Below, one piece after another: positions 4,769 through 25,628 of a DNA stretch of 32,767 nucleotides. The DNA lies in assembly GCA_020434205.1 (NCBI GenBank), contig JAGRBF010000034.1, positions 1 to 32,767 on the forward strand, given 5' to 3'. This stretch comes from Calditrichota bacterium (GTDB lineage: Bacteria > Calditrichota > Calditrichia > RBG-13-44-9 > J075). Position numbers and translations under genes: made by a program. The number at the start of each line of letters is the position of its first letter. Position 1 is the stretch's first letter. Below the pieces are notes generated by a model. It was not told the origin of the DNA. It searched no databases and saw nothing but the letters and a program-made list of their open reading frames with translations.

Positions 4769-4984
4769 TCAGTCCCGGGTATTAGGAGGGCAGGCCGCTT
4801 CCCGGGTTTTGCTGCGAAGGGGCAGCTGTCCCAGAACCGCTTTCTTGCCGGGTTCGCTCAGTTCCGGCCAGGCCGCGATCTCTGCCAGGGTGCGCAAACA
4901 TCCCCGGCACAGACCGCTTTCCCGGTCGATCTGGCATACCCGGATACAGGGCGAGGCGACCGTTTGGTTGGCGTTTTCGTTCAT
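4769..4984 (-). CDS. DUF1289 family small Cys4 protein
   Basis: 71 aa. The core SPCIRVCQID...GLCRGCLRTLAEIAAW is the DUF1289 signature, with Cys13, Cys17, Cys26 and Cys29 positioned to bind a metal or Fe-S cluster, followed by WxxLSxxxKxAVLxxL. It has no signal peptide, so it is cytosolic. The family's role is not established. It starts one base after the TAA of the beta-propeller gene, so it is the third gene of the cobalamin-riboswitch operon. That placement hints at a link to B12 use or metal handling, but translational hitch-hiking is equally possible. Confidence 0.85.
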   Translation of the reverse strand: MNENANQTVASPCIRVCQIDRESGLCRGCLRTLAEIAAWPELSEPGKKAVLGQLPLRSKTREAACPPNTRD

Positions 4985-4985
4985 C

Positions 4986-6257
4986 TTAGCGCACCAGGGT
5001 CATCCGGCGAACCACACTGCGTCCGTTTACGGAAAGACGGTAAAAATAGTGGCCGCTCACCAACGCTTCCCCCCTGCTGTTGCGGGCATCCCACCGAATC
5101 CGGTAGGTCCCGGGGGAGCGCAGGCCGGCATCCGGCACTGCGACCCGTTGCCCGAGCACATTGAGCACTTCCAGGAGCACTTCTCCCCCCTCTTCCAGGC
5201 GATATTCGAGCCGGGTTTCGGGATTAAAGGGATTGGGATAGTTGGGCAAAAGGGCGAAGGACAGCGGTTGCTCCGGAAGGTTCCCCAGGCCCACGAAATT
5301 ATCCAGATCCACCACCAGAGAAACCGGTCCGTTGCCCACCGCCCATGACGACTCCCGGTTGAGGTTGCGATCGTAAATATACAGCGAGTCGCTGCCAAAA
5401 TCGGCGAGATAGAGGCGGCCATCGCGATCGGAGGCCATTCCCGGACCTCCGGGCAGGGGATTGGCGGCATCGTAAATAAAGGTCCCGGCAGTCAGGTCGT
5501 AAACCAGAATTCCCGAGCCAAAAGTGGCCAGGTAGGCTCTGCCCTCCCCGGCGCTCACCTGGGTAATGGCGGTGCCCGCCTCAATGGAATCCACCACCGC
5601 AGCAGCAGCAATATCGACGATATCCAGGCGCCCGCCGACGTCCGCGTAATTGCCGGTGCAGGCCACCAGGAGTTGATTTCCGGCAACCGCCACCGACTGG
5701 GGATTTATCCCCACCCGGATTTCCGAAATGGCCAGGGTATTCAGATCGATTTTGGAGAGGGTGCCCGGTTCGTAACCGTTCAGGGTGAAACCGGAATTGC
5801 AGACATAGGCAAATCCGCCATGTACCACCAAACCTTCCGGGGCGGTTCCCACCGTCAGGGTTTGAGTGATGCTGCCGGTGGCCAGATCCACCACCGCCAC
5901 CTGATTGGTAAACAGGAGGGTCACCAGGGCCCGCCCGTCGCCGGTCGTCGCTACGCTCCAGGGGTTGGTTCCACTGCCGAAGTCGATGCTGTTGATGTTC
6001 GTTATGGCATTTTTGTCGACGATCTGCACCTGGTTTACCCCGGAATTGACCACCAACAGGCTGTCCCCGCCGCGGCGGATTTCGTTGGGATAAAGGCCCG
6101 CCGCCAGGGCGTTCAGCTGAACGGTTTGATCGGTGAGGTTGACCACGGAAATATTCTCCCCCAGGGAGTTCAGCACAAAAACACGGGCCCCGGGCTGGGC
6201 GAGGAGGGATCCGGCGCCCGGGAGCAGCAGGCACAGTAAAAGCAGGTATCTGGTCAT
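4986..6257 (-). CDS. Secreted YncE-type beta-propeller with C-terminal sorting domain; BtuG-like candidate
   Basis: 423 aa from the ATG at 6257, which has AAGGAAAG upstream and gives the signal peptide TRYLLLLCLLLPGAGSLLA. A lipobox is absent. Residues ~25-320 are a seven-bladed-type propeller of repeated ~40-residue units (VFVLNSLGENISVVNL, LVTLLFTNQVAVVDLATG, LLVACTGNYADVGGRLDIV, LYLADFGSDSLYIYDR). Residues ~332-423 are a FlgD-like/type IX sorting domain (LLPNYPNPFNPETRLEY ... LNVLGQRV ... GHYFYRLSV). It begins 7 nt after the receptor stop in a B12-riboswitch operon. Bacteroides BtuG is a surface beta-propeller that captures cobalamin and pairs with BtuB, so a matching capture role is inferred here from fold and context. 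Alternatives are a generic surface propeller or a protein for another corrinoid. Confidence 0.8.
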   Translation of the reverse strand: MTRYLLLLCLLLPGAGSLLAQPGARVFVLNSLGENISVVNLTDQTVQLNALAAGLYPNEIRRGGDSLLVVNSGVNQVQIVDKNAITNINSIDFGSGTNPWSVATTGDGRALVTLLFTNQVAVVDLATGSITQTLTVGTAPEGLVVHGGFAYVCNSGFTLNGYEPGTLSKIDLNTLAISEIRVGINPQSVAVAGNQLLVACTGNYADVGGRLDIVDIAAAAVVDSIEAGTAITQVSAGEGRAYLATFGSGILVYDLTAGTFIYDAANPLPGGPGMASDRDGRLYLADFGSDSLYIYDRNLNRESSWAVGNGPVSLVVDLDNFVGLGNLPEQPLSFALLPNYPNPFNPETRLEYRLEEGGEVLLEVLNVLGQRVAVPDAGLRSPGTYRIRWDARNSRGEALVSGHYFYRLSVNGRSVVRRMTLVR

Positions 6258-6264
6258 CTTGTTA

Positions 6265-8526
6265 TCACTTTCCTTGAAATTGAAGATCGACGGTAATTTG
6301 ATAGGTGCGGGCGGGCATCGGATAGCCGCGCAGCAGGTCGTAGCTGGTATTGCCGGCATTCAGCATGGCCAGCTCCAGGCTTCCCCGCAAAGCACCCGCG
6401 GCGAAACCGCGCCCCAGGCCGAAATCGACAACCCGGTAAGGGGGCAGGGCATTTCCGGTATTGGCGGCGGTTACCTGCCGTTCGCCGACGGCGCGCAGGG
6501 CGGCAAAACTGCGCCAGGCACCGGGGTTAAAGATCAGGCGCAGATCCAGGGTATGGCGGGGAATAAAAACGATCTGGCGCTGGTACAAATTATGGGAGGG
6601 GTTCAGGTTGCGGGCCTCCGCAAAACTGTAGGCGGTCCCCAGGCGCAGCACACCGGGCCAGAGATTTTGCCCGGCCTGGAGGTCCAGGCCACTTTTGACG
6701 GCCCGTTCCTCGTTGCGGGGTTCCCAGATGCCGCTCACGCCCTGGTGCCAGAAGATCAGGTCCCGCACCTCTTCCCGGTAGGCATAAAGGCTCAATTCCG
6801 GAAACCATCTTTCCCGTCGCTGGAAACGCAGGGTGGCGTGCCGGACGCTGTTGCGCTCCGGGCGAAGATCGGGGTTTCCCTGTGCCCGGCTATCTCCCCG
6901 CCAGAACAGGCTGTTGAAATCCGGGTAGCGCACCGCCCGCGCCCATCCGGCCGAGAGGGTTACCCCGGGGACGCCCCCGGGCACCAAACTGATCCCCAAA
7001 GCCGGATACCATGCCGCAGGGTTGCCCAGAACCGTTTCGTAGCGGGCGACGCCGCGCAGGGAAAGGGCCTCCAGACCGGGAATTTTCCAGGGAAGCTCCT
7101 GTAGCACCCCGGCATAAAGCCCCTGGCTGTCCCGCATTTTTCGCCCGATGGCCTGGTCCGGAACCAGCAGATTGCGGTGGTCCAGATCCTCCCGGAGATA
7201 CTGGAATCCCAGGCGGGTTTCGTTGCCGCTGCGCGCCTGCCACTGTACATAGCTGTGCCCTTCCCAAACCGCATCGGTCTGGCGATAATCGTAGCGCAGT
7301 AATCCCGGAGCGCTTTGGCTGTTGCGATAGGAACGGGAAATGCGGTTCAGGGAAAGCAGCGAATGCACCACCAGATTGTCGGTGGGAAACCACTGATGTT
7401 CTCCCTGGAGGGACCAGGTCCGGCTGGCCGAAACCGCCTGATAAGGGTCGCGTTCCTCGTAATAACCGGAGGGAATACCGTTCTCCCCGCTGCGGCGATT
7501 TACCAGGAATTTGATCCGATGGGCGCTAAAAAGGGTCAGGTCCAGGCGGGAAAAAAGCTGGCGATTGCGCTGCCAGGCATTCTGGCGCCGGAAGGTCTCG
7601 CCGTCTACGGCATACTCAAAATTCTGACGGGCGTAATCCTGCGAATAGCTGGCGGAGAGGCCGGCGGCATCGCCCCGGGCTTCTGCGGCGATTTTACCGG
7701 AGGCGGACCGGAAGGAACCTCCCTGTGCCCCGACCTCCAGATTTTCCCGCTCCCCCTGACGGGTGGTAAAGCGGACCACCCCGGCAAAAGCGTGGCTGCC
7801 AAAGAGGGCGGTGTTCCCGTGGGGAAGCACCTCCACTGTTTCGAGGCGATCCAGGGGAATCTGGTCGAGATCTACGCTGCCTTCCTGGGCATCGTTGAGG
7901 CGTTGCCCGTCCAGCAGAACCAGCACCTGGTTGCCGCGACTGCCGTGGATAACAATACGGGAGCGTCCCCCGCTTTCGCTGAGCACCTCTACCCCGGGCA
8001 GGGAAATGAGCACCTGGCGCAGGTCCAGGCTTTTCATCTCCCGGAGATCCTCATGGGAAAGCCGCAGCACCTCGCCTTCCAGGGCGGTGTGCGAGGGGGG
8101 CCGGCGCCCTTCCACCGAAACCGCGCTGGCGGGCAGAGGCCTTTGGCGCATTTCCACGGAAACGTGCAGGGGCAGGTCGCTGCTCAGGCGTTGATCCTCC
8201 AGCCACTGTTCCTGATAATCCATGCGGGAAAAGTGCAGGCGGTAGCGGCCGGAGGGAACATTTTCCAGGGCAAAATAGCCCCGGGAATCGCTCATCGCCA
8301 CAAAGGGTGTTTCCGGGATATTGACGGTAACCCCTTCGATGGGCTGGCCGTTTTCCCGATCCATCACCCAACCGGAAATACGGATATTCTCCTGGGCGGC
8401 CAGGGAGAACAGCAGGCCGAAAAAGCCGGCCAGGGCCAAATAAATGATACTGCGGGAGTTGCGACCCCATTGAGGGCGCGGGGGGGCATTACGAGACAAG
8501 GCAACCCAACTTTCCCACGAAAGCAT
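6265..8526 (-). CDS. btuB: TonB-dependent outer-membrane receptor, cobalamin (BtuB-like)
   Basis: Up to 753 aa. Order: N-terminal signal segment (IIYLALAGFFGLLFSLAAQ, ~27-45), carboxypeptidase-regulatory-like beta domain (~48-127, VMDRENGQPIEGVTVNI), plug (~150-258, LPGVEVLSESGGRSRIVIHG, LVLLDGQRL, LETVEVLPHGNTALFGSHAFAGVVRF), then a 22-strand-type barrel. The N-terminal CarboxypepD_reg domain is typical of FCB-group receptors. The substrate is assigned from the cobalamin riboswitch directly upstream. The start is uncertain: the ATG at 8526 lies only 12 nt from riboswitch stem P1 and has no Shine-Dalgarno sequence, while a TTG nine codons later (8499) has a weak GGGAAAG upstream. It imports bound corrinoid into the periplasm with TonB-ExbBD energy; no TonB, BtuF or BtuCD gene is in the window. 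Confidence 0.9.
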   Translation of the reverse strand: MLSWESWVALSRNAPPRPQWGRNSRSIIYLALAGFFGLLFSLAAQENIRISGWVMDRENGQPIEGVTVNIPETPFVAMSDSRGYFALENVPSGRYRLHFSRMDYQEQWLEDQRLSSDLPLHVSVEMRQRPLPASAVSVEGRRPPSHTALEGEVLRLSHEDLREMKSLDLRQVLISLPGVEVLSESGGRSRIVIHGSRGNQVLVLLDGQRLNDAQEGSVDLDQIPLDRLETVEVLPHGNTALFGSHAFAGVVRFTTRQGERENLEVGAQGGSFRSASGKIAAEARGDAAGLSASYSQDYARQNFEYAVDGETFRRQNAWQRNRQLFSRLDLTLFSAHRIKFLVNRRSGENGIPSGYYEERDPYQAVSASRTWSLQGEHQWFPTDNLVVHSLLSLNRISRSYRNSQSAPGLLRYDYRQTDAVWEGHSYVQWQARSGNETRLGFQYLREDLDHRNLLVPDQAIGRKMRDSQGLYAGVLQELPWKIPGLEALSLRGVARYETVLGNPAAWYPALGISLVPGGVPGVTLSAGWARAVRYPDFNSLFWRGDSRAQGNPDLRPERNSVRHATLRFQRRERWFPELSLYAYREEVRDLIFWHQGVSGIWEPRNEERAVKSGLDLQAGQNLWPGVLRLGTAYSFAEARNLNPSHNLYQRQIVFIPRHTLDLRLIFNPGAWRSFAALRAVGERQVTAANTGNALPPYRVVDFGLGRGFAAGALRGSLELAMLNAGNTSYDLLRGYPMPARTYQITVDLQFQGK

Positions 8527-8535
8527 TACTTGGGT
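8504..8535 (-). promoter_or_regulatory. Nested hairpin over the btuB start (candidate expression platform)
   Basis: Read on the minus strand, ACCCAA pairs with TTGGGT, and inside them CTTTC pairs with GAAAG around a GTGG loop. The structure begins 3 nt after riboswitch P1 and encloses the ATG at 8526. It is a plausible ribosome-site or start-codon sequestering hairpin. Confidence 0.4.
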
Positions 8536-8537
8536 AT

Positions 8538-8690
8538 CGGTTGAGGCCGGTCTCCTGACTCAGAGATCATCCGGCACATCCGCCTTCCCATCCCGGGGAT
8601 CCGGGACAGTGGCATCCTGGATGGCCGTCCTTCTTTACAGTTGCGGGGCAGTGGCGGATTTTCACCGCGCTTCCCGTTCACCTTCAACCG
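8538..8690 (-). ncRNA. Cobalamin (adenosylcobalamin-class) riboswitch
   Basis: On the minus strand the element reads, in order: GGGAAGCGCGGTGAAAATCC, then GCCACTGCCCCGCAACTGTA (the B12 box, around 8655-8637), a second GCCACTG, GGGAAGGCGG, then GAGTCAGGAGACCGGCC at the 3' side. These are the conserved landmarks of the cobalamin riboswitch in correct order and spacing. P1 closes it: CGGTTGAAGG (8690-8681) pairs with CCTCAACCG (8546-8538) apart from one bulged A. The gene start follows within 12 nt, so control of translation initiation is more likely than a terminator. It should repress the receptor, propeller and DUF1289 genes when B12 is plentiful. Confidence 0.97.
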
Positions 8691-14999: not shown

Positions 15000-16100
15000 T
15001 TACCAGGTGCGAATATGGTTCAACACCCGCACCACGCTGGAAGGGGAAACCAGCAGGTTGGTGTAGCTGGCGTTGGCCAGCGGGCAATAACATTCCTTCT
15101 GACGAATGCTTTTGCGGATTTTGGCCGCCTGACCGCTGCGCCATATTTTTTTGAAGTCGTAGTTTTCTTTGCGCAGATTTCCCATGGAATCCGCCCGGAT
15201 ACAACAGGGCCAAACCTCTCCGTCCGGGGAAATCTGGGCGGACATCACCCCCGCGAAACAGGGTATTACCTGAGTGCGCTGGTCGAGAATCTTTTTCACC
15301 AGATCGTAATACTCATACCGGAAACCCTGGGCAATGGCGGCCACCCCGCTCTGCTTACGCTTGCGCATCTCCTCCCTTAAAAAGTCTATGGCGCCGGCAT
15401 ATTTTTCCAGTTGCGGGTTGATGGGTTCCCCGATGGTGCCCAGTTCTACCCGCTCCTCGGCGATCTCGGTGATGTAGGAATCGGGTTCCAGGGGAATCAG
15501 GCCGTCGTAAATGTCCCGAAATTCGTCCACGTTGTAATTGGAAATGACGGTGTGGATGCCCAGGGTAAAATTTTTGTAGCGTTTGAGTTCCTTGAGCTTC
15601 TCATAGGTCTTCATGGCCCGCTCGAAATTGTTTTTCAGGCCGCGCACCTCATCGTGTTTTTCCCCGAGTTGGTCCAGGGAAACATTGATGATCACATCCG
15701 AGTTGGGGCACCCTTCCACAATTTCCTCGGCCAGTTCCGGAATCCGGTGGTAAAGGCTGGCGTTGGTGGGAATGTTGATAATCCCCGGCGAGGTGTGCTG
15801 GTAAGCGGACTTGATAACCTTGGCAATGTCCTTGCGCAGAAAAGGCTCCCCGCCGCTGAAGGTAAACCAGTAGGGGGCCTTGCCGAGGTTGGCGAACAGT
15901 TTGTCGTATTCTTCCAGGGTAAAATTATTAACCCGCTTGAGGTAGACATTGCAGGTCCGGCAGCGCGAATTGCAGGAATAAAGCAGGCTGATGGTAATGT
16001 TGACCGGATAGAGAAATCCGGAACCGACCGCACGCTGGACCTGAAAAGCCGGCAGTTTGGAAACCAGTTGGATCTTCTTCACAGTGGGATTCATGGTCAT
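15000..16100 (-). CDS. Radical SAM protein with SPASM-like C-terminal cysteines
   Basis: 366 aa. The [4Fe-4S]-SAM motif is SCNSRCRTCNV (Cys43, Cys47, Cys50), followed by FSGGEPFLRKDI (81-92, SAM-binding GGEP). The C-terminal region has PCFAGVMSAQISPDGEVWPCC (Cys281, 299, 300) and ECYCPLANA (Cys337, 339), resembling a SPASM/twitch auxiliary cluster domain. SPASM enzymes usually modify peptides or proteins; a few act on sugars or lipids. No small substrate peptide is evident next to it, so the substrate is unknown. The start at 16100 has AAGGA ~10 nt upstream. It converges on the pentapeptide gene with a 10-nt gap, and follows the FG-GAP gene by 160 nt on the same strand. Confidence 0.88.
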   Translation of the reverse strand: MTMNPTVKKIQLVSKLPAFQVQRAVGSGFLYPVNITISLLYSCNSRCRTCNVYLKRVNNFTLEEYDKLFANLGKAPYWFTFSGGEPFLRKDIAKVIKSAYQHTSPGIINIPTNASLYHRIPELAEEIVEGCPNSDVIINVSLDQLGEKHDEVRGLKNNFERAMKTYEKLKELKRYKNFTLGIHTVISNYNVDEFRDIYDGLIPLEPDSYITEIAEERVELGTIGEPINPQLEKYAGAIDFLREEMRKRKQSGVAAIAQGFRYEYYDLVKKILDQRTQVIPCFAGVMSAQISPDGEVWPCCIRADSMGNLRKENYDFKKIWRSGQAAKIRKSIRQKECYCPLANASYTNLLVSPSSVVRVLNHIRTW

Positions 16101-16260: not shown

Positions 16261-18459
16261 TTACTTCACGTAAATCAGGCGATTGGACAAACGCTGCTCC
16301 CCGACCGTCAGCACATACATGTACTGTCCGGAGCCCACCGCCGTTCCGTTTTCATCCATGGCGTCCCAGGCGATGGTGTGCAATCCGGCATCCAGTCCAT
16401 GGAAATAGAAGCTGCGAATTTTGCGCCCGAGGACGTCAAAAATCTCCAGTTTGCCCCGCGCATCGGTGCGTTCCAGGGTAAAGGGAATCTGGGTAACCCC
16501 GTTAAAGGGGTTGGGGTAATTCTGATGCAACTGGAAGGTCAGGATTTCCTGAGAGCCGTCGAAGAACACCGAGGTTCGGGCGTTTTCCCAACGGGTCCCG
16601 TCCATATCCACGCTAACCAGCTTGTATTCGTACTGGCGCCCCGATTCCACGCGACTGTCGAGAAAACGGTAGCTGTTTTCCTGGCTGCTGTTGCCATGAC
16701 CAATCAGCTCATGGTCCCGGGTATAGGATGCGACCAATTGAAAATCGGTTTGCTGGTCGCTGGCCCGGTAGAGCTCGAAGCCCAGGTTGTTCAGCTCCGA
16801 AGCCGTGTTCCAGGACAGGGAAACCCCGGTGGGGAGAGACCGGGCGCCGAAACCAGCCAGCTGAACCGGCAGCGGATTATCGGTGGAGATGGATCCGATG
16901 GTCCAGCGGGAATAGCGATCGAATTCGCTGGAAATCCCGTTTACGGTAATCACATTGGCGCCGGTATTGATATTTTGCGAGGTTCCGGCGATTTCCCAGC
17001 GGTCGTTGGTTTTGCTGAACACCAGGATCACCAGGTCGTTTTCATCGGTAATGGATGCCCATTCGGTTACGTTGGCCGAACCATAAGCAAAATCGATGGA
17101 AGCAGTATAGTTGGTCTTGGGGGTGGTAACGGTATAAAATCCCCTGGTTGCCAGGTGGTCGATACCGGTATCGAAGCTGGCGCGATCGGGAACCGCCCCG
17201 GCGTTATAAAAAACCGAAACATTTTCGGACTGGTCGCTGGCGCTGAAATCGATGACCACATTGCCCGAATAATAGCTCTGCGGGGCGGCGTCGCCGGCGG
17301 CAATGGTGTTGTCTTCGGTTTGGGTGGTAGCCCACCAGATCAGCTGATTCAAATTGAAGCTGGATCCCAGAATATCGTAATCGCCGTCGCCGTCCATGTC
17401 GGCGGCATCGGCATAATAAGCGAAGTCAATGGTATCCGAAACAATGGTATTGGTAAAGTTTCCCGCGCCGTCATTGGTGAGGGTAACGATCTGGTCGGCC
17501 AGTTCGGCGGCCCCGACCAAATCGGGAATACCATCTCCGTTGAAATCGACTACCTGCACGCTGCGCCCGCGTCCAAAACCGGCCCGGGCGATATTTTCGG
17601 TACCAAAGGAAAGCGCTCCGCTGGTGGTATTGCGCCACCAGGAGACCTTGTCGTCCAGGTAAGAGACCCCGACGATGTCCAGCCGGCCATCACCATCAAA
17701 ATCGCCCACGTCCATTCCATTGGGACCGTTGAAGGTGGAGGTCAGCACCCCCCGGGTAAAGTTTTCCGAACCGTCATTGACGTAATACGAAATGATATCG
17801 CTGAGGTATTCGTTGGTGATAATGTCCAGGTCCCCGTCATTGTCCAGGTCGGCCGCCAAAACATCCGACGGACCCGCCAGCCCTTCATCAATGGCTATGC
17901 GGGTAAAGCTGCCGCCGCCGTTGTTGCGGTTCCAAAAAACCCGGCCGTTGCTGCCCACCCCAAAGCTGGTGGACAACACATCGATGTTGCCGTCTTCATT
18001 AAGATCAACGGCGAAAACCGCATAGGCGCTGTCGCTGGAGGCATCGATATCATTGCCCGTCCAGGAATCTGCCGGGGGATTGGTATTCGCCTGGTAATAG
18101 CGAACCGGATTGGCGGGATTGACCACCGAACCCACTACAATTTCCTTGCGCGAGTCCCCGGTCAGGTTAGCCGCCGCCACGGAACGAGCCCCGTTATCGG
18201 TGGTGCTGACCGTGTATTTGGTGAAGCTGCCGTTGGCTTCCTGCTTATACCAGGCGACAAAAATGGGTCCGCCGGTAATATCATTGGCAGCAGCCACCAC
18301 ATCCATGTCGTAGTCTCCGTCAAAATCCAGGACGATGAATTTTTTGGCCTGAATCAACTGAAGATCCAGATAATTTTTAACCAACTGTCCAAAGGCTGCA
18401 GTGGATACGAGCGTGGAGACAACCAGTAACATTACAAACTTCATTACCATCTCTTTCAT
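16261..18459 (-). CDS. Secreted FG-GAP/VCBS beta-propeller protein with C-terminal sorting domain
   Basis: 732 aa; start ATG with AAGGA 5 nt upstream. Signal peptide ~1-24 (VMLLVVSTLVSTAAFGQ). Residues ~40-390 hold at least six calcium-loop repeats about 45-50 residues apart: LDFDGDYDMDVV, DLNEDGNIDVL, DLDNDGDLDII, DFDGDGRLDIVG, DFNGDGIPDLVG, DMDGDGDYDILG, an integrin-type propeller. A middle beta domain follows (~400-535), then an FN3-like unit (PLPVQLAGFGARSLPTGVSL ... FELYRA), then a FlgD-like sorting domain (~645-732, LHQNYPNPFNGVTQIPF ... IFDVLGRKI) with the usual basic end. It is probably an extracellular or surface protein binding calcium; its ligand is unknown. It lies alone between the GT1 gene (118 nt upstream) and the radical-SAM gene. 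Confidence 0.9.
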   Translation of the reverse strand: MKEMVMKFVMLLVVSTLVSTAAFGQLVKNYLDLQLIQAKKFIVLDFDGDYDMDVVAAANDITGGPIFVAWYKQEANGSFTKYTVSTTDNGARSVAAANLTGDSRKEIVVGSVVNPANPVRYYQANTNPPADSWTGNDIDASSDSAYAVFAVDLNEDGNIDVLSTSFGVGSNGRVFWNRNNGGGSFTRIAIDEGLAGPSDVLAADLDNDGDLDIITNEYLSDIISYYVNDGSENFTRGVLTSTFNGPNGMDVGDFDGDGRLDIVGVSYLDDKVSWWRNTTSGALSFGTENIARAGFGRGRSVQVVDFNGDGIPDLVGAAELADQIVTLTNDGAGNFTNTIVSDTIDFAYYADAADMDGDGDYDILGSSFNLNQLIWWATTQTEDNTIAAGDAAPQSYYSGNVVIDFSASDQSENVSVFYNAGAVPDRASFDTGIDHLATRGFYTVTTPKTNYTASIDFAYGSANVTEWASITDENDLVILVFSKTNDRWEIAGTSQNINTGANVITVNGISSEFDRYSRWTIGSISTDNPLPVQLAGFGARSLPTGVSLSWNTASELNNLGFELYRASDQQTDFQLVASYTRDHELIGHGNSSQENSYRFLDSRVESGRQYEYKLVSVDMDGTRWENARTSVFFDGSQEILTFQLHQNYPNPFNGVTQIPFTLERTDARGKLEIFDVLGRKIRSFYFHGLDAGLHTIAWDAMDENGTAVGSGQYMYVLTVGEQRLSNRLIYVK

Positions 18460-23630: not shown

Positions 23631-25361
23631 CTATTTGATCAGCACCAGTTTTTGCGTTTTAGCGAAAGATTCTCCGGCAATGCGTACGAAATAAATACCC
23701 GAAGCCAGCCCTTCCCCATCCAGGCGCATGCTGTGGGAGCCGGCATCCTGATTTCCCCGAAAGAGGGTCTCCAGCACCCGCCCCTGGATGTCCATAACCA
23801 CCACGGACAACTTCTGGGCTTTTTGCAGGGCGTATTCGATGGTGGCGGTGGCGTTTACCGGATTGGGATACAGGGAGAACTGAAAATCCACGGCCAGGCC
23901 GCTTTCCACAGGATCATTATCGCCCAGACCGGTTAAAGATGAACCCTCACCCAGCAAAAAGATGCGCACGCTGTTTCCGGGAACGCTGTAGGTGAAGTTC
24001 CCGCCGGAAACGGAAAGGCTGTCGAAGGGAACAATGGCGCTCAGACCGTCCACCACCCGGGCCCGGGAAAAGTCCGCTCCCCCGCTCAATTGGAAATCCA
24101 GGGTGCGCGAGCTGGTGCTGTAGTTTACCGCGGCAATGGCCAGCGACGAATCGCCCCGGACCGCCAGCACCTCCATTCGGTTGATGCTCTCGGCGCTTTG
24201 CACGATCACCCCGTTGGTAAAGTGATTGTAGAAGTTGGCAAAAGCCCAGAAGCCCGGAAACAGTTTATAGGCCTCCCCGTTGGTATTGGTGCCGCGCCAG
24301 TCCTCGAACAAGCCGTAGCCGGTCCAGCCGGAGAGCGGCAGGGAGGGGCTGTTGAGGTAGAGATTGGAAAAGCGGAACATCACCATCCCGGCCAGGTCCA
24401 GCTCCCAGATCCGCACCAGATTGCGGGTCAGGGCTATTCCCGCCTCTTCGGAATCGTAGTTGATCAGAAAACCGGCCCCGTAGTCGTTGTCGCCCATTTC
24501 GGACAGGTAGAGGGGAAGGTTGTATCCCACCAGATCGTCGTGAATGCTGGTGATCATCCCATTGATGGCGCTGGCCCCGATTTGGTAGACGTGAAAAGCC
24601 AGAAAATCGACGTACTGATCCCCGCCGGCATTGAGGAACTGGCGGGTCAGATTGGCCTGAAAAACCTCTTCGATGCCCCCCATGCGGATTTCCGGGGAAA
24701 CCTCGTCCGCGGCGGCACGGGCGGCGGCAGCCATGGCCAGCAGGTCGTTGAGGTCCCCTTCGAAAGCGTGGGTGGGAAAAGAAGGATCGCTGTTGGGTTC
24801 GTTGACGAAAGTGAACATCACCCGGGAAGGCGGCACCCCGACATCGTTCACCAGCCAGCTCAGGCTGGCGCGGACAATTTCAGAATATTCGGCGTAATTG
24901 GTGGGCGGCCAGGCCCCGCTGGCGCCCAGCATAAAGGTATTGGGGGTGGAGGCCAGCCAGTTGGCGCAATCCCAGATATTGAGGTAAAAGACCAGATCGG
25001 GGTGTTGGCGGCGCATGGCCACGAACCAGCGGTGAAAGCTGGTGGTTTTGCCGTAGGCGACATCCGCCTGGGAGACAAAATCAAAGTTGATCACCGAATT
25101 TTCGGGATTGCTGTTGTCGTTAGCCGGTTCGAACTCGAACATGGGAAATTGCATGCGCAGGATATTGAGGTTGGAGGTCCGGTAGCGCTGCAAAAACATG
25201 CTACTGTCCTGATCAATCCAGGTGCCTTCGAAGCCGTAATGAACCGGAACGGTTCCCACCTGATTGTCCAGGTTAACGGAAACGGTTTGGGACTGGCAGC
25301 ACAGGGAGACAATCAGAAGGGCGGATACGGCAGCGAGACGGGAGGCGCCGGTTAGAAACAT
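23631..25361 (-). CDS. Secreted clan GH-A glycoside hydrolase (GH39/GH5-like) with C-terminal sorting domain
   Basis: 576 aa from the ATG at 25361 (AAGGA 5 nt upstream; the longer reading frame upstream is noncoding-like). Signal peptide ~1-25 (LAAVSALLIVSLCCQSQ). A (beta/alpha)8 barrel runs ~35-400: the acid/base is Glu188 in FTFVNEPNSD and the nucleophile is Glu288 in LYLSEMGDNDYG, the two-Glu pattern of retaining clan A enzymes. NIWDCANWLAS and GLFEDWRGTNTNGEAY are shared with the downstream-strand paralogue at 25684-27177. A beta-sandwich domain follows (~400-480), then a sorting domain (~495-576, FSLYPNPVNATATIEYALQK ... GIYFVRIAG). First gene of the flippase/Rph-like/GT1 operon. Exact GH family and substrate cannot be decided. 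PslG, a GH39 enzyme in Psl exopolysaccharide synthesis, is a functional analogy only. Confidence 0.85.
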   Translation of the reverse strand: MFLTGASRLAAVSALLIVSLCCQSQTVSVNLDNQVGTVPVHYGFEGTWIDQDSSMFLQRYRTSNLNILRMQFPMFEFEPANDNSNPENSVINFDFVSQADVAYGKTTSFHRWFVAMRRQHPDLVFYLNIWDCANWLASTPNTFMLGASGAWPPTNYAEYSEIVRASLSWLVNDVGVPPSRVMFTFVNEPNSDPSFPTHAFEGDLNDLLAMAAAARAAADEVSPEIRMGGIEEVFQANLTRQFLNAGGDQYVDFLAFHVYQIGASAINGMITSIHDDLVGYNLPLYLSEMGDNDYGAGFLINYDSEEAGIALTRNLVRIWELDLAGMVMFRFSNLYLNSPSLPLSGWTGYGLFEDWRGTNTNGEAYKLFPGFWAFANFYNHFTNGVIVQSAESINRMEVLAVRGDSSLAIAAVNYSTSSRTLDFQLSGGADFSRARVVDGLSAIVPFDSLSVSGGNFTYSVPGNSVRIFLLGEGSSLTGLGDNDPVESGLAVDFQFSLYPNPVNATATIEYALQKAQKLSVVVMDIQGRVLETLFRGNQDAGSHSMRLDGEGLASGIYFVRIAGESFAKTQKLVLIK

Positions 25362-25510
25362 GTTGATCCTTTCGCAATGGGTTCTTTTTCGGATGCAGGC
25401 TAAGAGCGGCATAAAAAGTGCCAATCCATATAAAAATTCAATATTTGGCGACATTTTGCGTTTTCCGAAAAATCCAACCACTCGTGGGACATTAACCAAA
25501 CTTTTGTTTA

Positions 25511-25524
25511 TTAAGCGCTTACAA
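25511..25524. promoter_or_regulatory. LacI-family/cre-like palindromic operator candidate
   Basis: TTAAGCGCTTACAA contains the perfect 10-bp palindrome TAAGCGCTTA. On the minus strand TGTAAGCGCTTAAT fits 12 of 14 positions of the cre-type consensus TGWAANCGNTNWCA. It lies ~150 nt upstream of the secreted hydrolase start, a fitting place for sugar-responsive control by a LacI-family regulator. No such regulator is in the window. Confidence 0.42.
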
Positions 25525-25598
25525 CACCCTGCGAAACGGCGCGATACCCAATTTTCTGCAAGGGGGAATTCTAAACCGCCCGTAGCGTAGGCTGGCGA

Positions 25599-25628
25599 TT
25601 GAACGACGGGGTACTTCATCTGTATAAT
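25599..25628 (+). promoter_or_regulatory. Orphan plus-strand promoter candidate
   Basis: TTGAAC, an 18-nt spacer and a perfect TATAAT read rightward, with no plus-strand gene downstream; transcription would run antisense to the hydrolase at 25684-27177. Could be antisense RNA or chance in an AT-rich gap. Confidence 0.3.

Follow-up and report, generated by a model that had tools for sequence, protein, structure and literature searches.

How might a bacterium outside the Bacteroidota capture vitamin B12 at its surface? The question is raised by a locus in the window (the whole 32,767-nucleotide stretch that was analysed, from contig JAGRBF010000034.1 of assembly GCA_020434205.1), in which a cobalamin riboswitch is followed by a TonB-dependent receptor and then by a secreted propeller with a C-terminal sorting domain. 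In Bacteroides, the surface lipoprotein BtuG binds cobalamin very tightly and passes it on to BtuB. The mechanism of the BtuB-BtuG pair has been described as that of a lid, and the lipid anchor of BtuG is part of this lid model (PMC10404256). BtuG homologues have been reported to be exclusive to the Bacteroidetes, based on a BlastP search at 1e-10 over 313 gut strains (PMC6143338). The first-pass annotation of this DNA proposed an analogous capture module, anchored through a different secretion route in a non-Bacteroidota lineage, and the phylum is indeed Calditrichota. The reading favoured here, to which we give a probability of roughly 0.78, is that the propeller would be a B12-capturing lid of the BtuG type for the receptor, exported and attached via type IX secretion.

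The operon (Table 1) opens with a riboswitch that had been recognised as a canonical cobalamin one and that covers the full RF00174 model above its gathering score of 31.5 (E 3.3e-25); the 5.6 Mb genome has no second RF00174 match. The operon first delimited at 4769-8690 is real, but the end at 8690 omits the first 35 nt of the riboswitch; a TonB receptor does come next, but the spacing of 12 nt given for it was counted from a shorter core, and the receptor starts 1 nt past the Rfam aptamer boundary. The propeller begins at ATG 6257, which is 7 nt past the receptor stop, exactly the distance that had been noted; a longer open reading frame from 6359 is a false extension. DUF1289, also correctly placed after the propeller, starts 1 nt past the propeller stop, and a 4-alpha-glucanotransferase gene lies downstream of the operon. 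A hairpin that would refold at the start of the receptor was considered as an expression platform; since the folded stretch is not stabler than its shuffles, no such claim is made. The recurrence of the same gene order across many genomes (see below) argues that the arrangement is not due to chance.

Table 1. Features of the B12 operon (positions are those of the window)
Feature	Positions	Strand	Evidence
Cobalamin (B12) riboswitch aptamer, RF00174	8528..8725	-	103.9 bits, full model 1-189
BtuB-like TonB-dependent receptor, 753 aa	6265..8526	-	Plug domain, best NCBIfam family, Foldseek
Receptor N-terminal carboxypeptidase-regulatory-like domain, residues 50-126	8149..8379	-	PF13620, 46.1 bits
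Receptor plug domain, residues 153-250	7777..8070	-	PF07715, 67.7 bits
Secreted BtuG-like seven-bladed propeller with sorting tail, 423 aa	4986..6257	-	Sequence, model, Foldseek, tree
Propeller signal peptide, residues 1-21, MTRYLLLLCLLLPGAGSLLAQ, without a usable lipobox	6195..6257	-	Sequence
Propeller domain, residues 24-318, 28 strands forming 7 blades	5304..6188	-	AlphaFold2 model
Type IX type-A sorting domain / FlgD-like Ig domain, residues ~340-419	5001..5240	-	TIGR04183, FlgD_ig
DUF1289 small cysteine protein, last gene of the operon	4769..4984	-	69.1 bits vs cut-off 27

The signal peptide of the propeller contains no lipobox, and there is no cysteine past the cleavage region; the signal peptides of its relatives end in an A-x-A/Q-like manner. 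In the AlphaFold2 model (pLDDT 84.6), seven four-stranded blades lead via a flexible linker into a C-terminal domain of seven strands, with pLDDT mostly above 85 over the propeller domain and low confidence over the linker (residues 320-346). The tail passes the cut-offs of both TIGR04183 (30.0 bits vs 23) and Pfam FlgD_ig (31.1 bits vs 27) which, together with the model, bears out its description as a FlgD/type IX-type domain. The best PDB match by sequence is the generic archaeal YVTN propeller 1l0q, with BtuG1 next, so that sequence alone would not decide the identity of the propeller. Foldseek also ranks this tandem propeller first (TM 0.65, 13.5 Å), and ranks 2-17 are occupied by BtuG1, BtuG2, and BtuG3, which align over the propeller domain with target TM scores of about 0.75-0.80 and mostly with an rmsd of around 3 Å; the alignment is less clean for 8blw_B, the full-length, fused chain of BtuG1. 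The structural comparison with BtuG that had been suggested as a check therefore yields a match. The window propeller has no match to Pfam DUF5074 even at E 1; this family is passed by a relative from clade II (see below), L282 (31.6 bits), and by a lipoprotein relative, G017 (81.7 bits). The latter, a Caldithrix-type orthologue, matches BtuG3 at 4.7e-42, while Caldithrix-type lipoprotein orthologues match BtuG2 at 2.2e-41, and a profile-profile comparison of the sorting type with the lipoprotein type gives an E of 6.2e-47 with 288 columns in register.

In a maximum-likelihood propeller tree with Calditrichota's own generic YVTN propellers as the outgroup, the BtuG-like proteins, including the window propeller, split from the generic ones with a support of 97/93 (94/78 in a larger tree). 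Bacteroides BtuG1-3 fall into clade I, together with lipoproteins of Calditrichota, of the Ignavibacteriales-named class, and of one KSB1-phylum genome; the G017 protein is one of its members. Clade II contains the window propeller, 20 further proteins with sorting tails, six lipoproteins, and one protein whose end is dockerin-like; its sorting-tail proteins are spread over Calditrichota, KSB1, and a third phylum. Since the window propeller shares a clade with BtuG to the exclusion of the generic YVTN propellers, and since relatives in that clade pass DUF5074, it is better called homologous to BtuG rather than merely analogous. It is a BtuG-like propeller of the second clade and not BtuG proper because a lipid anchor was looked for and is absent.

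Is the ligand pocket preserved? The pocket residues of BtuG2 named in PMC10404256 are Trp194, Tyr239, Trp272, Tyr316, and Tyr335. Tyr239 aligns with Tyr204 of the window propeller and is kept in 89% of clade II; Phe157 stands at the position of Trp194; and the other three of these five aromatics are not kept. Asn54 of BtuG2, which is not among the residues named in that paper and which is conserved throughout, aligns with Asn30. As the named residues are partly kept, and as several of them are missing from BtuG1 too, whose structure with cyanocobalamin is likewise known, the putative pocket appears compatible with corrinoid binding, without being proof of it. One could imagine that the module imports some other corrinoid (cobinamide or a particular cobamide) via a remodelled pocket, given that the residues narrowing the upper-ligand cavity of BtuG2 are lost and that the two clades are distinct from each other. 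However, BtuG2 itself binds cobinamide just as it binds cobalamin (PMC10404256); a difference in specificity is therefore not required, and a change of substrate is considered rather unlikely.

The distribution of the gene pair bears on the same question. RF00174 occurs in 36 of 40 Calditrichota genomes, nearly always once, and the order riboswitch, receptor, propeller is found at 24 of the 29 riboswitch loci that are readable far enough; the exceptions are G008, G012, G021, G032, and the second riboswitch of G030. A BtuF-like gene often comes next after the receptor-propeller pair. For scans of genomes, a tail-free core alignment served as the query, a scan with the whole protein having given mostly unrelated proteins that share the sorting tail only. 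Outside Calditrichota, the core profile is matched at E 1e-15 or better by 146 of 245 genomes of the Ignavibacteriales-named class, and by 38 of 82 KSB1-phylum genomes. In the former class, 17 loci were examined and a riboswitch is present at 14 of the 16 testable ones, while in KSB1 the whole order is seen at 10 of 11 loci, the eleventh of which is cut off upstream; these loci were taken mostly from the best-scoring matches, and the rates are accordingly not unbiased. At two clade II loci (G012 and G128) the pair has no riboswitch beside it. The co-occurrence of receptor, propeller, and riboswitch that had been expected in relatives is thus seen in Calditrichota, KSB1, and the Ignavibacteriales-named class, and these riboswitch-linked relatives contradict the statement in PMC6143338 that BtuG is exclusive to the Bacteroidetes. 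In the open-access literature searched, nothing was found that links BtuG with Ignavibacteria.

Some loci depart from the common arrangement. Two tandem TonB receptors precede the propeller at L119 (G040), L121 (G012), and L232 and L233 (G128), with a riboswitch nearby in G040 and none nearby in G012 and G128. At L174 (G021) and L171 (G032), the riboswitch is followed by a divergent, different TonB receptor and a BtuF-like gene without a propeller, which shows that the propeller is dispensable. DUF1289 adjoins the pair or the riboswitch in G002, G004, G005, G006, G010, G012, and G014, and in G012 (L155) it lies directly between the riboswitch and a BtuF-like gene; this recurrence in B12 operons, and these neighbours in G012, hint at a role for DUF1289 in corrinoid handling.

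A sceptical explanation would be that a generic YVTN propeller has been recruited to a B12 operon for adhesion, scaffolding, or the like and does not bind corrinoids; 1l0q as the best sequence match and the only partial conservation of the BtuG2 pocket are in keeping with this. However, the window propeller groups with BtuG and apart from the generic propellers of its own phylum, and a clade II relative passes DUF5074. Moreover, when genomes are searched with the core profile of the sorting type, the top match in nearly every one is the riboswitch-linked propeller, and other propellers score clearly lower. Such a recruitment is therefore very improbable.

The receptor itself has TIGR01779 (TonB-B12) as its best NCBIfam family (E 2.8e-26), albeit at 92.2 bits, below the curated cut-off of 599.7. 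Its model is of moderate confidence (pLDDT 70), and the first five Foldseek ranks are all BtuB, namely E. coli BtuB and the BtuB1 and BtuB3 of B. thetaiotaomicron. The receptor tree splits into partners of clade I and partners of clade II, as does the propeller tree, and the pairwise distances of receptors and propellers are correlated (0.83, above all 5000 permutations), a value to which common ancestry contributes. Judging from these trees and distances, receptor and propeller travel together in evolution.

What, then, has become of the anchor? In the first set of propellers to be tabulated, 12 have a tail without a lipobox, 27 have a lipobox without a tail, and none has both; the exact test for this exclusivity gives 2.6e-10 (12 vs 27 proteins), ignoring shared ancestry. 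A single origin of the sorting tail has a p-AU of 0.22, and an earlier, smaller tree suggested two origins; a single origin is thus neither shown nor rejected by these sequences. Since the two ends of a closed propeller meet in neighbouring strands, an anchor shifted from the N- to the C-terminus may still attach the protein by the same side of its disc. Another kind of ending occurs at L122 (G048), where a clade II propeller on the minus strand, under a cobalamin riboswitch, has neither a lipobox nor a sorting tail. Its C-terminus is dockerin-like, with two calcium-loop-like repeats; identification as a dockerin was not adopted, the Dockerin_1 match (E 0.002) being below the cut-off.

The genome encodes the means for the different secretion route that had been proposed. 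The sortase PorU is present at 809.8 bits (it is above the cut-off in 36 of 40 Calditrichota genomes, this one included), and the translocon protein SprA is above the cut-off, in pieces, so that the sorting tail can be used. The window encodes two more secreted proteins that end in type IX sorting tails (16264-18459 and 23634-25619), FG-GAP repeats being present in one of them, and a radical SAM/SPASM protein (15003-16100) resembling heme d1/NirJ2-type and peptide-maturase families, all below their cut-offs. The cell uses B12, as is evident from its B12-dependent methionine synthase, MetH. The inner-membrane half of the pathway was not located, since the single PF01497 match, on another contig, is in a protein that fails the BtuF model.

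Type A sorting tails are normally removed. With PorU encoded in the genome and no second anchor on the window propeller, type IX export and cleavage by PorU might free the propeller, which would then act as a diffusible corrinoid binder that docks on the receptor later. However, receptor and propeller are inherited together, as expected of a fixed complex, and the presence of lipoproteins in the same clade argues that retention at the surface is ancestral; release is therefore improbable. A broader version, in which the protein is a B12-binding scavenger that is either secreted and diffusible or linked to a sugar-lipid and laterally mobile, and in which an extra domain found in KSB1 may bind corrinoid too, is likewise doubtful. 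This domain, of ~195 aa, lies between propeller and sorting tail in the clade II propellers of KSB1 (L282-L289, ~640 aa; for example, L282:429-1010). It has no Pfam match and no sequence match to BtuH-type or other solved PDB structures, and is no more than weakly linked to the LIC_13355 lipoprotein family; it is a candidate for a new corrinoid-binding domain.

Under the favoured reading of a surface-attached lid, scarcity of corrinoid would, in keeping with the known function of RF00174, lead the riboswitch to allow expression of the operon. The BtuB-like receptor would be placed in the outer membrane, and the propeller would cross the inner membrane via its signal peptide; its C-terminal domain would direct it across the outer membrane by the type IX route, taking the place of the N-terminal lipid anchor of BtuG. 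The tail would probably be processed by PorU and the propeller linked to a surface glycolipid. There, it would capture corrinoids on one face, as Bacteroides BtuG does, and hand them, as a lid, to the receptor for import with TonB energy. In this scheme, corrinoid binding, the lid complex with the receptor, and the cleavage of the tail and attachment are what we infer; the first-pass proposal of a BtuG-like module with another anchor outside the Bacteroidota gains from the BtuG fold match, the tail, and the co-occurrence with receptor and riboswitch.

Several consequences follow. Lid-assisted B12 capture is probably older than the gut, and not special to it, because BtuG relatives occur across Calditrichota, KSB1, and the Ignavibacteriales-named class. 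The change of anchor shows that a C-terminal type IX signal can stand in for an N-terminal lipid, which makes whether the lid needs a tether at all a testable question. Under the favoured reading, type IX secretion would gain a role in vitamin uptake; a search of the open-access literature brought up no cargo that captures B12 in such a way, and the one paper there in which both BtuG and type IX secretion occur deals with the BAM complex of Bacteroidota (PMC12578637).

How does the module compare with known systems? It shares several features with the B. thetaiotaomicron BtuB-BtuG1-3 systems (8blw, 8bmx, 8p97, 3dsm): a riboswitch-controlled receptor adjoins a seven-bladed propeller, the propellers have the same fold and belong to a common clade, and a BtuF-like gene lies downstream in relatives of the window protein. 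It differs from them in lacking a lipobox, in having a C-terminal type IX sorting domain, in coming from Calditrichota, and in having a shortened blade-1 motif (NEGNF) and three changed pocket aromatics. BtuG1 (BT1490) is a propeller fused to a BtuH-type B12-binding domain, and the KSB1 relatives likewise have an extra domain after the propeller; however, no match in sequence was detected between this domain and the BtuG1 PDB chain, a sorting tail comes after it, and the window propeller is without it. YncE and YVTN surface propellers (1l0q, 3vgz) share the repeat type and the general fold with the window propeller but lie outside the BtuG-like clade, match it less well in structure, and have no link to a cobalamin riboswitch. 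Finally, the window propeller is like type IX cargo of type A in that its tail is above the NCBIfam cut-off and its genome encodes both PorU and SprA.
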